A stretch of 58,201 nt of DNA from contig JAJISE010000007.1 of the NCBI GenBank assembly GCA_022848865.1, positions 1 to 58,201 on the forward strand. Reading direction: 5' to 3'. Position numbers and translations under genes: made by a program. Positions 14,473 to 58,201 of this stretch are shown here, one piece after another. The stretch comes from Candidatus Thermoplasmatota archaeon. Lineage in GTDB: Archaea; Thermoplasmatota; Thermoplasmata; RBG-16-68-12; JAGMCJ01. The number at the start of each line of letters is the position of its first letter. Positions within the stretch are counted from its first letter, which is position 1. Below the pieces are notes generated by a model. It ran no database searches and was not told the origin of the DNA. It was given only the letters and a program-made list of their open reading frames with translations.

Positions 14473-15486
14473 CTATCTGTCGAAGAAGGAGCGAGGGTCA
14501 GCCGAGCACTGCATAGGCCCTTGCGCGTCCAGGAGATCGAGCCATTGCTCCCGGCAGCCGCATCTCGGATCTGGTGGACTCGCCGAGCCGTCCAACGAGA
14601 ACTCGCGGAGGAAATCGATGATCGCCGAATCACACCCGCCGCAGTTGTGGGCGCCTCTCCTGCTGCCGGCTCCCGCCGTTGAAACGACGACGCGCGAGTC
14701 AGTGTCCCTGCTCCGCTCGACGACGTCCAGGACCGTCCACAGCCAAGGAGGTCGATATTCGCCCCTGTTCCAGAGGTATTCCACGAGCGTGTTCCTCTGG
14801 ACATTGACAGGGTTGAGGGAGACGACGTCCGCGAGACCGGACGCCGATCGCGCTGCCGCCGCGGCATCCATCACCGCCTCCTTCTCTGTGAGGAACGGGG
14901 GTTTTACCAGAACGTAGGCACGCACCCCTATCCCAAGATCCCGGCAGAGCTCGCACGCATTCCTGAAATCCTCGAAGTCCATCTTCTTGTTGATCGAGTT
15001 CTGGAGGACTTCATCACTCGCCGACTCAAGGCCCATGGCTATCTCGATCCTGTTTGGCTCGGGCAGCTCCTCAAGACGCTCCCTGGAGACGAATTCCGGC
15101 CTGCTCTCGATGAGCACCCTATCGGCACGGGCGAGCGCATCGGTGAGCATTCTCTGAACCGCATCGATCCCGATCTCGTCACCATCAAGGAAGCTCCCTG
15201 ATGTATATATCTTCAGGAACCTCTGTCCACCATGGCGCTTCATGGCTTCCCCGAACTGCGTGAGTATGCCCTCTGAAGGGACGTCCTCGGCGCAGTCGTC
15301 AATGTATCCGCACATGGAACACCCGCTCGTTCTGGACCAATAGCAGCCCTTTGTCCGGAGAATGATCACATGGCACTCTATAGTCTCGCCGTCCAGGACC
15401 TCCTGCTCGGTCCATGTCGAGATGAACCTCTCGGGATCCCTTTTGCCCGGCTTCCTGAGCCGCTTGATGATGTCCTCCAGGGTCAT
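14473..15486 (-). CDS. raSEA: Archaeosine biosynthesis radical SAM protein RaSEA
   Basis: A 337-residue radical SAM enzyme. Known role of the family: with ArcS it converts preQ0-lysine-modified tRNA at position 15 to archaeosine. The cluster segment CYWSRTSGCSMCGY is at about residue 45-58. EIAMGLESASDEVLQNSINKKM and the C-terminal Cys cluster (NCGGCDSAI, PRCGCREQW) are typical. ATG 15486 is chosen over the far upstream in-frame start because MTLEDIIKRLRKPGKRD matches family N-termini and a TATA-like AGTATTTTTG lies about 30 bases ahead. ArcS is not in the window. Confidence 0.85.
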   Translation of the reverse strand: MTLEDIIKRLRKPGKRDPERFISTWTEQEVLDGETIECHVIILRTKGCYWSRTSGCSMCGYIDDCAEDVPSEGILTQFGEAMKRHGGQRFLKIYTSGSFLDGDEIGIDAVQRMLTDALARADRVLIESRPEFVSRERLEELPEPNRIEIAMGLESASDEVLQNSINKKMDFEDFRNACELCRDLGIGVRAYVLVKPPFLTEKEAVMDAAAAARSASGLADVVSLNPVNVQRNTLVEYLWNRGEYRPPWLWTVLDVVERSRDTDSRVVVSTAGAGSRRGAHNCGGCDSAIIDFLREFSLDGSASPPDPRCGCREQWLDLLDAQGPMQCSADPRSFFDR

Positions 15487-15526
15487 TGTACCCACTCGAA
15501 TAGGTTGCGGAGGCAAAAATACTTGG

Positions 15527-17182
15527 CTATTTCGTCTTGGGGCTCGTTGTGGCGACAAGACCTGCGACGACACCGAACAGAACGAAGACGATGCCGAGGA
15601 ACAGGAACAGGTCGAACAAGTCGGTCGTGAGAGACATGCCGTACAGCGTGACTATCCGACCAGCGCTCTCATAGAACGAGAATTCAGAAATCGCTCCTAC
15701 GGCGATGAGCAGTGTCAGCAGTCCGGAAACCAGGAAGAACATGGCTCCGGTTGCTATCATGGCGATCCCGGCCTTCGCGCTCCCGGATCTCCCCAATGGT
15801 ACTACGACCGCGGCTGGACGAACTGCCCTGGCCTGGGTCTCCTTCGGAGCGTACTTCGCACAGACGTAGCAGTAGTGACGATCGTGCTTCTCGACGTACG
15901 TGAGGTCTTCCCCGCACGTCGGGCACTTCTTCGCCGCTTTCTTCCGCACGACGACTGCTGGCTTCTTGACGGGCAGGTATGACTTGCATGTGGGACAGTA
16001 CCATCTGTCATACTTCTCCACGTAACTGGCTTTGCCATGGCACTTCGGGCATGTGCCCTCCTCGACCGCCACTGCGGCCCTCTTGACCTCTTTCGGTGCA
16101 TACTTCCTGCATGTGTGGCAGTACCATCTGTCGTATTGTGAGTAGTACGTCAGAGGCTCCCCGCACGTCGGGCACTTCTTCACCTTGGCCTCCGCCTTCT
16201 TGGCTTCAGGCGCGTACTTCTTGCACGTCGAGCAGAACCACCTCTCGTACTTGGCGATGTACGTCAGAGGCTCCCCGCACGTGGAACATCTCCTGACCCC
16301 TGGCTTCTCCTTGGGCGGAGCCATCGCGACCGCGGGTACGACCTTCTCCTCAACGGGTGGCTTCTCCTCAGGCGGCGGGGCCTCAAACGGCTTTTCCTCC
16401 TCGGGAGGGGCCTCTGGGACTTCCTCCACGCCCGTCTCCACCAGGATCTCTTCCATCTCCTTTTCGAGGTGCGCCTCTTCTGGAACGATCTCCTCTTCAG
16501 GAGCTTCTTCGGCGGGTTCCTCCTCTGCCTCTTCCTCAGCTTCAGGTGGGGCCTCCTCTTCGGGCGGTTCGGGCAGCTTCTCCTCTTCGGGCGGTTCGGG
16601 CAGCTCCTTCTCCTCTTCGGGCGGTTCGGGCAGCTCCTTCTCCTCAGGAACCTCTTCCTCGACCTCCTCCGGAGGAGCTTCCTCCTCAGGTGGCTGGACC
16701 TCCTCCCGCTCCTCTATGCAGACAAGGAGTCTGTCCTGGAGGGCATTCTTCTTCCCGCCGACCTTCAGCCCGTAGGCCCTGCAGAGCGCTACAAGGTCGT
16801 CGCGCTTTGAGGCCTTCACGATTTCCTCCGTCAGCTCTGGCTTATCCTCTTCCTCGGGCTCTTCCAGCTCTTCTTCTGGCGTCTCTTCCACCTCCTCTTT
16901 GGGCGCGTAGGACTGGCAGTTGAAGCAGTACCATCTGTCGTACTGGGACACGTACGTCAGGTACTTGGCGCATTCCGGGCACTTCCTCTCTTCATCGCTC
17001 ATCTCTATCCCCTTCGGCGCGTAGGTTTCGCACTCATAGCAGTAGTACCTTTCATGCTCAGCGATATATGACAGTGGTCTCTCGCACTCAGGACAGGCGA
17101 TCTCCTTCATATCCCCGCCACAAATCGCGCATTTCTCAGCGTCATCTGGCAAGGACGCACCACACCTGGGGCAGTCCACCAT
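15527..17182 (-). CDS. Membrane protein with about eight zinc ribbons and a Pro-Glu repeat region
   Basis: 551 residues. The N-terminus has a CPRCG...CAICGG ribbon (about 4-21) and two ribbons of the form CPECx...YDRWYCxxCxxYAPK (about 30-90). An acidic linker follows, then a SAP-like helical motif (DDLVALCRAYGLKVGGKKNA, about 126-145). A long Glu/Pro region (about 160-285) contains near-identical repeats of LPEPPEEE. Four more ribbons of the YDRWYC type fill about 295-440. Two hydrophobic segments lie near the C-terminus. SAP motifs usually bind DNA and zinc ribbons bind nucleic acid or protein, so membrane attachment with a nucleic-acid-facing head is one reading. Start ATG 17182; a TATA (AATATATAAG, 17211-17220 reverse) suggests a near-leaderless mRNA. 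Confidence 0.75.
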   Translation of the reverse strand: MVDCPRCGASLPDDAEKCAICGGDMKEIACPECERPLSYIAEHERYYCYECETYAPKGIEMSDEERKCPECAKYLTYVSQYDRWYCFNCQSYAPKEEVEETPEEELEEPEEEDKPELTEEIVKASKRDDLVALCRAYGLKVGGKKNALQDRLLVCIEEREEVQPPEEEAPPEEVEEEVPEEKELPEPPEEEKELPEPPEEEKLPEPPEEEAPPEAEEEAEEEPAEEAPEEEIVPEEAHLEKEMEEILVETGVEEVPEAPPEEEKPFEAPPPEEKPPVEEKVVPAVAMAPPKEKPGVRRCSTCGEPLTYIAKYERWFCSTCKKYAPEAKKAEAKVKKCPTCGEPLTYYSQYDRWYCHTCRKYAPKEVKRAAVAVEEGTCPKCHGKASYVEKYDRWYCPTCKSYLPVKKPAVVVRKKAAKKCPTCGEDLTYVEKHDRHYCYVCAKYAPKETQARAVRPAAVVVPLGRSGSAKAGIAMIATGAMFFLVSGLLTLLIAVGAISEFSFYESAGRIVTLYGMSLTTDLFDLFLFLGIVFVLFGVVAGLVATTSPKTK

Positions 17183-17251
17183 TATATCACGCTTCGACGA
17201 TAATAGCAGACTTATATATTTGTTGTGATGTGATTTTCAATAGGCCATAAT

Positions 17252-17259
17252 CTTTATTA
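17252..17259 (+). promoter_or_regulatory. TATA box of tRNA-Thr
   Basis: TTTATTAG-type element about 26-33 bases before the tRNA 5' end, the expected archaeal spacing. The opposite strand just to the left carries the TATA of the zinc-ribbon gene, so the two genes diverge from this roughly 100-base gap. Confidence 0.5.
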
Positions 17260-17284
17260 GCCGCCTGGGCTTGAGACGCATTGT

Positions 17285-17357
17285 GCCACCGTAGCTCAGT
17301 TGGAAGAGCGGCTGACTTGTAATCAGCAGGTCGGGAGTTCGAGTCTCTCCGGTGGCT
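17285..17357 (+). tRNA. trnT: tRNA-Thr (anticodon TGT)
   Basis: Complete cloverleaf: acceptor GCCACCG/CGGTGGC, D arm with GCTCAGTTGGAAGAGC, anticodon stem GCTGA/TCAGC around loop CTTGTAA (anticodon TGT) and T arm with GTTCGAGTC. The discriminator base is T. No CCA is encoded and no intron is present. Its 3' part (17333-17357) is duplicated about 1.07 kb downstream, marking the tRNA as an integration site. Confidence 0.97.
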
Positions 17358-55998: not shown

Positions 55999-56289
55999 CT
56001 ACAGGGGCCGCTTGCACTTCCCGCAGACCAATCTCGTTTCCCGCCCGCACTCCTTGCATATGCCATGGAGGAACCTCTCCTTGACGGGCGCGTGATGACA
56101 GTCCGAGACCGCCAGAACCATGTGTCCGCAGTAGTCGCAGAGATGCTCGACGGGCCTCGTCCTCTCAACCCTTTTTTCGTAGATCTTGAGTATGACCCAG
56201 ATGATGATGAGGATGAGCACGAGTATCCCAACGACAACAATCGGCGACCCCCATGCACCCAGGCCGTTAGAGAGAACGAAGTCGGTCAC
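55999..56289 (-). CDS. Small membrane protein with zinc-ribbon tail
   Basis: 96 residues from GTG 56289. The N-terminus has one span (WGSPIVVVGILVLILIIIWV), then a basic stretch and a cytoplasmic tail with CDYCGH, DCHH, CKECGR and CGKCKR, enough ligands for two zinc sites. A TATA (CATAAATATG, about 56311-56320 on the reverse strand) is suitable. It is divergent from the ubiquitin-like operon and shares its promoter gap. No family recognised. Confidence 0.65.
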   Translation of the reverse strand: MTDFVLSNGLGAWGSPIVVVGILVLILIIIWVILKIYEKRVERTRPVEHLCDYCGHMVLAVSDCHHAPVKERFLHGICKECGRETRLVCGKCKRPL

Positions 56290-56415: not shown

Positions 56416-56421
56416 TTTATA
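56416..56421 (+). promoter_or_regulatory. TATA box of the ubiquitin-like operon
   Basis: TTTATA centred about 34 bases before the ATG at 56452, predicting a transcript start near 56443 and a leader under ten bases. No other promoter is seen inside the operon, whose genes overlap. Confidence 0.6.
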
Positions 56422-56451: not shown

Positions 56452-56697
56452 ATGGCAATGACAACTCTTCGTTTTATCTTCATCAGCGATCCCGAGAAGC
56501 CGGTTGTCACGTTGAAGGTGCCGAACGAGATGCTTTTTCAGGAAGCCCTTGTGATGGCGGCCAAGAAGCAGGACAAGGATGCAGGCGTGCTCTCGGCAAC
56601 ATACCCAGGTGGCACCCCTATAGCAGGCGGGACAGTGGAGGAGATCTCTGATAAGAGCACGAACATACACGTTATTGACCCGTCCATCGTTGGTTGA
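56452..56697 (+). CDS. Ubiquitin-like beta-grasp protein
   Basis: 81 residues. The pattern fits a ubiquitin-like fold: strands TTLRFIFI and VVTLKVP, helix MLFQEALVMAAKKQ, then GVLSATYPGGTPI and a final strand TNIHVID. The chain ends PSIVG, a single terminal Gly with no extra residues, so it could be adenylated and conjugated without prior trimming. Family knowledge: such proteins carry sulfur or are joined to lysines through the C-terminal Gly. The case for conjugation is the context: the next three genes are E2-like, E1-like and JAMM. ATG 56458 is a possible alternative start. It is too short and divergent for me to tell ThiS/MoaD from ubiquitin ancestry. Confidence 0.75.
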   Translation: MAMTTLRFIFISDPEKPVVTLKVPNEMLFQEALVMAAKKQDKDAGVLSATYPGGTPIAGGTVEEISDKSTNIHVIDPSIVG

Positions 56698-57172
56698 TTT
56701 CTTGAAGAGGGAAGACGACCTATTCTATTTCTTGCAGTGTGCAACGATATCATCTCCGCGGGACGCCGACTGGTTCCAGAGAGTGAGGGAGGAGAAGTAC
56801 GCTATTTCGAGATTCTCGGAATATCTCAGATTCCTCGAGGGGGGCGAATGGTTCGAACTGAGGCCGACGAGCGACGGCGCGACCAGATGGGTGGGCAGCG
56901 TGAGGGACGTGGGCCTGGAATTCGAGATGGAGCTTGTATTGAAGGACGCCTATCCCACAATGCCTCCGGCCGTTAGGGTCCCCAAGCTCATGGACTACAC
57001 GGACAGGAAGCTGGATGACGGGGTCCTCGGGCTCAGGATATGCGATATGCATATGGAGCAGAACTATTGGTGGGACGAATACTGCGGCATTGCTCTTTAT
57101 CTCAAGCGGGAGGTCAGCTACTGGGTCCAGAGCGTTCTTCACGATATGCGCAAAGAGGGGTGGCTGAAATAG
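56690..57172 (+). CDS. E2-like ubiquitin-conjugating (UBC-fold) protein
   Basis: About 160 residues. The start is uncertain: TTG 56690 overlaps the end of the ubiquitin-like gene, and TTG 56675 or 56702 are also possible. The UBC fold signature YPTMPPAVRVP lies at about residue 88, as in E2 enzymes (YPxxPP). About 25 residues later DDGVLGLRICDMH aligns with the E2 active-site region (DGxxCLD), making Cys118 the likely catalytic Cys, followed by NYWWDEYCG at the place of the E2 Trp-Ser/Pro motif and a C-terminal helix. The usual HPN is not seen. Cys132 is the only other Cys nearby. It would take the modifier from the E1-like enzyme and pass it to targets. Translation is coupled on both sides. 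Confidence 0.72.
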   Translation: MVDFLKREDDLFYFLQCATISSPRDADWFQRVREEKYAISRFSEYLRFLEGGEWFELRPTSDGATRWVGSVRDVGLEFEMELVLKDAYPTMPPAVRVPKLMDYTDRKLDDGVLGLRICDMHMEQNYWWDEYCGIALYLKREVSYWVQSVLHDMRKEGWLK

Positions 57173-57945
57173 AGAGGTATTCCCGCTTCATGCAGTTCCC
57201 CTTTGCAGATTTCTCGGAGCTTAAGGAGAAGAGGATCCTCATCGTCGGCGTCGGCGGGCTCGGTGCGGTGAGCGCTGAGATACTCGCCAGGTGCGGCGTC
57301 GGCAAGATCGTGCTGATGGATTACGACACGCTCGAGGAGGCGAATCTTAACAGGCTCATCTACGACACGTCACAAGTTGGGATGAAGAAGGTGGATGCGC
57401 TGAAGGCCCACTTGAGGAAGGCGAATCCGGAGGTAACTGGCATAGGTCATCCGTTTGACATAACGGACGGAAAGGGCTACGATCTGTTCGTCGAGGAAGT
57501 CGGCAAGAGCGACGCCGTGCTGGGATGCGTCGACACGTTCCAGGTCAGGGTCTTTATGAACTCCCAGTGCGTCAAGTCGGGGAAGCCGCTGATCGACGGC
57601 GGGGCGTCGACCGACGGGGTTAACGGAAGCGTCCATGTCGTCATCCCGGGGAAAACACCTTGCTTCAGGTGCAATAGGCCCGTCCTTGGCGAAACGCCCC
57701 CCGTGGAGATGCAGAGACCTGAAGGCACCAGGGACACCACCGGCGTATGCCACTTCACATCGCTTCCCACGACCATGGGAATAATCTCTAGTCTCCAGTG
57801 TCAGGAGGCCCTCAAGCTTCTGTTGAACTTCGGACATACGGCGCCCTACCTAATGTATCACGGGCTTGAGGGCGTCCTGGAGAGGTATGACTGGGAGAGG
57901 GACCCGGGCTGTCCAGTTTGCGGGGATATCACGGATGAAGAGTGA
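57160..57945 (+). CDS. E1-like ubiquitin-activating enzyme (ThiF/MoeB/UBA superfamily)
   Basis: 261 residues from GTG 57160 (MAEIERYSRFMQFPF, the RYSR-type lead of the family), overlapping the E2-like gene by 13 bases. Nucleotide loop GVGGLGA at about 30-36, Asp and Asn/Arg of MDYDTLEEANLNR at about 53-66, Lys of GMKKVDALK. A zinc site is formed by Cys168/Cys171 (CFRC) and Cys251/Cys254 (CPVC). The likely thioester Cys197 lies in GVCHFTSLPTTMGI, placed as in E1 catalytic domains, ahead of SLQCQEALKLLL. It should adenylate the Gly end of the modifier and pass it to the E2. There is no separate ubiquitin-fold domain, so it is smaller than eukaryotic E1. Confidence 0.88.
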   Translation: MAEIERYSRFMQFPFADFSELKEKRILIVGVGGLGAVSAEILARCGVGKIVLMDYDTLEEANLNRLIYDTSQVGMKKVDALKAHLRKANPEVTGIGHPFDITDGKGYDLFVEEVGKSDAVLGCVDTFQVRVFMNSQCVKSGKPLIDGGASTDGVNGSVHVVIPGKTPCFRCNRPVLGETPPVEMQRPEGTRDTTGVCHFTSLPTTMGIISSLQCQEALKLLLNFGHTAPYLMYHGLEGVLERYDWERDPGCPVCGDITDEE

Positions 57946-58201
57946 CGTGACCATCCAGAGAGACGTCATAGCCATAGTCCTGAGCCACGCGCTCAAGGAG
58001 AGCAGGACGAGTGGAAGGGAAGTGATCGGATGGTTGCTGGGGTTCCTCTGGAACGGAGAGATATACGTTTGTGACGCCGTCCCCTGCACCCGTTACAGAA
58101 GGCAGACGAAGTTCAGTGCGGAGGCGGACCCCCTCGAGGAAGCGGAGCTCGCCAGCAAGTATCCGAGAAACGTCGGAATCGTGGGACTGTATCATTCGCA
58201 T
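57935..58201 (+). CDS. JAMM/MPN+ metalloprotease, deubiquitinase-like (3' end outside window)
   Basis: ATG 57935 overlaps the E1-like gene by 11 bases and the frame runs off the window after 89 residues. The JAMM zinc motif is present up to the edge: catalytic Glu29 in GREVIGWLLG and the HxH pair at the last residues (GLYHSH). The remaining S-x7-S-x2-D part should lie just beyond 58201. Family knowledge: JAMM enzymes such as Rpn11 and AMSH cleave isopeptide bonds at ubiquitin Gly ends, and archaeal ones remove SAMPs. It is likely the deconjugase of this system. Confidence 0.85.
   Translation, partial: MKSDVTIQRDVIAIVLSHALKESRTSGREVIGWLLGFLWNGEIYVCDAVPCTRYRRQTKFSAEADPLEEAELASKYPRNVGIVGLYHSH

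Follow-up and report, generated by a model that had tools for sequence, protein, structure and literature searches.

UFMylation acts in quality control at the ribosome and the ER, and its components are a cause of neurological disease in humans. In eukaryotes it is built from a beta-grasp modifier with a Val-Gly C-terminus, a single-domain UBA5-type E1 and a UFC1-type E2 without the HPN motif. Two archaeal arrangements come closest to such a cascade. The compact operon of Caldiarchaeum subterraneum (Ub, E1, E2, RING and CsRpn11) encodes a canonical ubiquitin, a UBC-type E2 and a RING gene together with an Rpn11-like JAMM protease; the SAMP/UbaA/desampylase systems have a ThiF-type E1 and a JAMM metalloprotease and no E2. 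Ufm1 itself has been stated to be absent from archaea and bacteria (PMC4327156), and UFM1, C53, UFC1 and UFSP2 have been seen only in eukaryotes (PMC10183829). A 2023 phylogenomic study found UBA5 to be bacterial-derived and placed UFL1 and DDRGK1 in Asgard archaea, hence a mosaic origin (PMC10183829). In the published literature, preprints aside, we found nothing joining UFM1 with Thermoplasmata or describing an operon of this kind. Here we analyse a four-gene locus of a Candidatus Thermoplasmatota archaeon which, with high confidence, we consider a prokaryotic UFM1-type protein-conjugation operon, the assignment being carried by homology and the chemistry predicted from it. A predicted UFM1-type operon in archaea stands against surveys calling UFM1 and UFC1 exclusively eukaryotic.

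The locus lies at the end of the analysed stretch of 58,201 nucleotides (the window) and all its genes are on the + strand. A TATA-like box, TTTATA (56416-56421, + strand), is the sole candidate promoter and sits 30 nt 5' of the modifier (Ubl) start; comparison of five genus members shows the box with its flanks and the gene starts to be identical or conserved. The Ubl gene (56452-56697) encodes 81 amino acids ending in ...IDPSIVG, with the terminal Gly codon at 56692-56694. It is followed by the E2 gene (56702-57172, 156 aa), whose frame opens with TTG at 56675, although the TTG at 56702 agrees better with the relatives; its stop is at 57172. The E1 gene (57160-57945, 261 aa) starts with GTG, and the JAMM/MPN+ metalloprotease gene starts with ATG at 57935 and is present as its N-terminal 89 residues (57935-58201; Pfam JAB, 27.2 bits), the contig stopping inside its HSH motif. 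Overlaps of about 10 nt join E2 to E1 and E1 to JAMM. The sequence-only reading, which had described a compact one-strand operon of four overlapping or abutting genes behind a single TATA box, with Cys118 and Cys197 as the catalytic residues of E2 and E1, is borne out in all four frames and at both codons (57041-57043, counted from the 160-residue start, and 57748-57750). Between the window and the related locus L018 the dN/dS values are 0.036, 0.09, 0.152 and 0.061 for Ubl, E2, E1 and JAMM, respectively. All four genes are under purifying selection and the operon is not a chance arrangement. As had been anticipated, the set is kept together in relatives: the order Ubl-E2-E1-JAMM recurs in every other readable locus, in about 20 species genomes, with one exception lacking the Ubl.

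The E2 scores 39.4 bits against Pfam UFC1 (cut-off 25), and relatives in several families reach 50-56; it obtains only 16.1 bits against Prok-E2_B and stays below the cut-offs of UQ_con and Prok-E2. Thus, the expectation that it would score as a UBC-fold protein holds, by way of the UFC1 family. When the PDB was searched with the E2, as a single sequence or as a profile, UFC1 and essentially nothing else came back (1.5e-8). The archaeal E2s (156-165 aa) share 27-33% identity with human UFC1 over about 143 residues, the window E2 27%; they lack the HPN motif, share the TRW segment and the IC motif with the eukaryotic enzyme, and place their Cys, in R-[IL]-C-D-M-H-M-E, on human Cys116. The E2 is hence a member of the UFC1 family and a predicted conjugating enzyme.

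An AF2 model of the Ubl (pLDDT 89.8) gave, in a fold search of the PDB, 14 top matches that are all UFM1 (E 6e-6, TM 0.86, rmsd 1.3 A), followed at some distance by SUMO and ubiquitin (TM about 0.67). In hhalign the Ubl profile gave P 7.8e-5 to UFM1 versus 0.15 to ubiquitin. Because HMMER searches against Pfam, including Ufm1, found no match, as was the case for the Ubl profile against the PDB, including UFM1, the assignment is based on modelled fold, pairwise profile score and context, and the modifier is best described as a UFM1-like beta-grasp protein with a Val-Gly end. Val-Gly is present in every copy and, unlike in eukaryotes, the Ubl is mostly encoded already mature. The copy in L029 carries Ser-Cys after Val-Gly (VGSC), the same as human pro-UFM1, that in L030 carries Thr, and those in L025 and L027 have longer tails; the residues following Val-Gly in L025, L027, L029 and L030 are GLPALDSGALTV, SLPPSIL, SC and T. 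Such tails suggest a processing step, presumably carried out by the JAMM protein. The Ubl is single-copy in 15 of the 16 carrier genomes tested, and no Ubl gene was found in the L031 genome.

In a phmmer search with the window E1, five UBA5 chains rank first (165-170 bits, the best 169.8), followed by MoeB at 104.5 bits. The protein has a GVGGLG nucleotide loop, the zinc motifs CFRC/CPVC and its catalytic Cys197 in the segment GVCHFTSLPTTMG, which aligns with GVCAASLPTTMG of human UBA5 and keeps the GVC...SLPTTMG motif. In the reverse direction, a search of 250 genomes of the class with human UBA5 recovered 20 loci at 131-176 bits, all of them operon E1s, and everything else scored 91.5 bits or less. 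Three of these hits, in genomes G406, G413 and G435, apparently correspond to L028, L027 and L031, which carry the E2; these divergent carriers are missed by the Pfam UFC1 model and were seen only through the E1 or the pattern scan. Among the 250 class genomes an E1 of UBA5 grade occurs only beside a UFC1-like E2, in strict co-occurrence. In an E1 tree human UBA5 groups with 16 operon E1s (support 81/61); since this support is weak and the branches are long, we take the tree as supportive only and make no claim on rooting. These comparisons place the window E1 in the UBA5 family.

The fit between E1 and E2 was compared with that of the human pair, in which the last residues of UBA5 (L394, L397, M398 and M401) bind a UFC1 groove formed by V29, L32, L39, I40, V43, F54 and L56 (PMC8481289). 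Of the C-terminal segments with which human UBA5 binds UFM1 and UFC1, the window E1 has none; E1s of other families are tailed. Short tails with the human UFC1-binding spacing occur in L010/L011, L030 and L031 (IDELFEKL, AAKMFDEM and AARIFDEI), and the E2s of these loci are hydrophobic at groove positions 40 and 43. The spacing motif and the hydrophobic pair go together in families f12 and f64 (the family of L030) and in L031, and both are missing in the order of the window's genome, where the E1s end directly behind the final zinc Cys pair, position 40 of the E2 is S, A, E, R or D and position 43 is mostly polar or small. In other families the E1 tail measures 27 residues or longer; in L029 the E1 end falls in an assembly gap. 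This pattern, a single phylogenetic contrast, fits a docking like that of UBA5 with UFC1 which would have been lost in one order.

The JAMM gene, truncated by the contig end, was expected to complete its motif beyond 58201, and the copies of the relatives do so. A complete orthologue of 333 residues from the same genus (L015:5359-6357) served as reference. The motif residues E29, H87-S-H89-P and S112-x2-D115 are invariant in 14 relatives, in which the loop from H89 to S112 exceeds the classical seven residues. In a Foldseek search the MPN domain matches Rpn11 and CsRpn11 (TMt 0.72), and the nearest NCBIfam model is desampylase at 26.9 bits versus a cut-off of 130. The C-terminal domain of about 150 residues (180-333 in L015) has no full-length match in a PDB fold search and might bind substrates. 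Eukaryotic UFMylation has the cysteine protease UFSP in place of a JAMM, and the E3 ligase UFL1. No UFSP-type C78 peptidase (PF07910) over cut-off was found in the 16 carrier genomes, which leaves the JAMM protein as the best deconjugase candidate, and it is likely to be the deconjugase of the tag. Likewise, UFL1 (PF09743) was not found in the same genomes at E values up to 10, a search that a divergent winged-helix E3 would escape. The absence of a RING gene, remarked upon previously, extends to any E3 gene in the operon. Adjoining the Ubl gene and transcribed divergently from it, the window encodes on the - strand (55999-56289) a small protein, a putative membrane adaptor or E3, in which a single hydrophobic stretch resembles a membrane helix and a cluster of Cys residues resembles a zinc ribbon. 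Zinc-ribbon genes, perhaps unrelated to it, also adjoin the operon at L030, L031 and L009.

A peptide-pattern scan of one genome per species, for 84,980 species, gave 18 loci. They lie without exception in metagenome-assembled genomes of archaea (three of them chromosome-scale records) titled Thermoplasmatota, Thermoplasmata, Methanomassiliicoccales or Euryarchaeota; because the scan used two exact heptapeptide patterns, distant carriers, for instance in Asgard archaea, could have been missed. Family searches found the operon in 5 of 390 genomes of the phylum and in at least 17 of 400 relatives, the latter a lower bound because divergent carriers escape the Pfam UFC1 model; in the sampled class, 20 of about 250 genomes are carriers. 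Every carrier is a metagenome-assembled genome. That only a minority of Thermoplasmatota carry the operon argues for an accessory pathway. In the window its neighbours are RNA polymerase genes and NusA. The sequence-only reading had taken this adjacency as a hint of a housekeeping role, an argument that does not stand: the neighbour is not conserved outside the genus and is no evidence for such a role. A functional link to the RNA polymerase operon was likewise dropped on account of the different location in other families. Since the flanking genes vary between families, the four genes are the unit, and a search for a fifth gene conserved across families found none. Only families f1, f2 and f56, all of the window's order, encode downstream of the operon a DUF6015 protein, which has a weak TFIIE-alpha likeness, together with a secreted protein of very large size; the two recur about 3 kb 3' of the E2 in L009, L015, L018, L021, L023 and L025-L028. 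The view that the operon does not sit in a defence island is upheld, no mobile or defence context having been found. Plasmid and viral collections contained no E2 relative, and a mobile-element origin was set aside as unsupported.

All four parts show homology and intact active-site residues in a fixed gene order, and a mechanism can be proposed after the model of UFMylation. In most genomes the Ubl would be encoded mature, with its Val-Gly end. The UBA5-like E1 would adenylate the C-terminal glycine with ATP and form a thioester on Cys197, from which the UFC1-like E2 would accept the Ubl on its conserved catalytic Cys prior to handing it to lysines of target proteins, either directly or via an adaptor encoded elsewhere. 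The JAMM protease would then strip the Ubl from its targets and, in a few genomes, may trim the tail after Val-Gly, as UFSP1/2 do in eukaryotes. The lysine targeting, the chemistry and the specificity of the JAMM are what we infer from homology.

The alternative that survives best, although we regard it as unlikely, is the horizontal acquisition of a UFM1 system from a eukaryote with subsequent packing as an operon. It would agree with UFM1 and UFC1 being known only from eukaryotes (PMC10183829, PMC4327156) and with the patchy occurrence within Thermoplasmatota, no carrier having been found beyond that phylum in the heptapeptide pattern scan. However, the divergence among the archaeal proteins is large (55-99% for E2), and the operonic order and a JAMM in the place of UFSP are not eukaryotic traits. 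Moreover, a comparison of human UFC1 with the divergent kinetoplastid UFC1 3kpa yields 226 bits, and one with the archaeal E2s about 38-43 bits, so the archaeal branch falls beyond the eukaryotic diversity sampled. This disfavours a recent eukaryotic source, although rate effects or an old transfer could also give such scores.

A main role of the Ubl as sulfur carrier in tRNA or cofactor thiolation, in the manner of SAMP2/Urm1 and with conjugation secondary, appears very improbable. An E1 of this superfamily is often the partner of a sulfur carrier, and the sub-threshold desampylase match of the JAMM points the same way, but the E1 is in every case accompanied by a dedicated E2 whose Cys is invariant, the operon has no rhodanese or thiolation gene, and the E1 falls far under the MoeB and ThiF cut-offs and that of the UbaA-type SAMP-E1 (110.6 versus 450 bits). 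Furthermore, the third E1 of the same genome is ThiF/MoeB-like and adjoins a ThiI-like gene.

The genome holds in addition a second operon (contig C3, about 15093-17327; also L014:8094-10328 and L003), again with E1, Ubl, E2 and JAMM on one strand. Its E1 is nearest to UBA7/UBA1 (102 bits), its Ubl has a GG end and weak ubiquitin-family matches, its E2 has the HPN motif and scores 50.8 bits with UQ_con, and its JAMM is classical. A UQ_con E2 is present in 9 of the 16 carriers. The typing of this canonical ubiquitin-type operon apart from the window's set, which shows a sub-cut-off UQ_con score, no HPN and a Val-Gly end, means that the methods separate the ubiquitin type from the UFM1 type within one genome. 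Least probable of all and largely refuted is a generic archaeal ubiquitin operon (Caldiarchaeum/Asgard) or BIL/CBASS-like defence set whose UFM1 likeness would be superfamily-wide only, for which speak the same four activities in one operon, the JAMM fold closest to Rpn11 and CsRpn11 and the superfamily-level matches of the E1 to PADLOC E1-E2 models, and against which stand an E2 over the cut-off of UFC1 and under those of UQ_con and Prok-E2, an E1 nearest to UBA5 and not UBA1, a Ubl model for which ubiquitin, SUMO and CsUb are far poorer matches than UFM1, the separate ubiquitin-type operon and the lack of any PADLOC match for E2 and Ubl. Thus, of the sequence-only reading the Ubl-E2-E1-JAMM operon in a euryarchaeal lineage is retained, and its comparison with the Caldiarchaeum, Asgard and BIL sets gives way to an assignment to the UFM1/UBA5/UFC1 family, on the matches of E2, E1 and Ubl.

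For the UFM1-type operon the presence of both cascades in one genome means that the ubiquitin-type and the UFM1-type lineage can be distinct as early as in archaea. Most simply, the archaeal operon would be a sister lineage predating or paralleling the split of the eukaryotic UFM1 systems. Whether the cascade is pre-eukaryotic we judge to be evenly balanced; in such a scenario an archaeal modifier-E1-E2 operon with a JAMM would have come first, and eukaryotes would have inherited or acquired three of its parts, replaced the JAMM by UFSP and added UFL1 and DDRGK1. An archaeal modifier, E1 and E2 found together would place the core cascade outside eukaryotes, the operon would give biochemists a minimal cascade free of an E3, and the origin of UFMylation would become testable by phylogeny and reconstitution.
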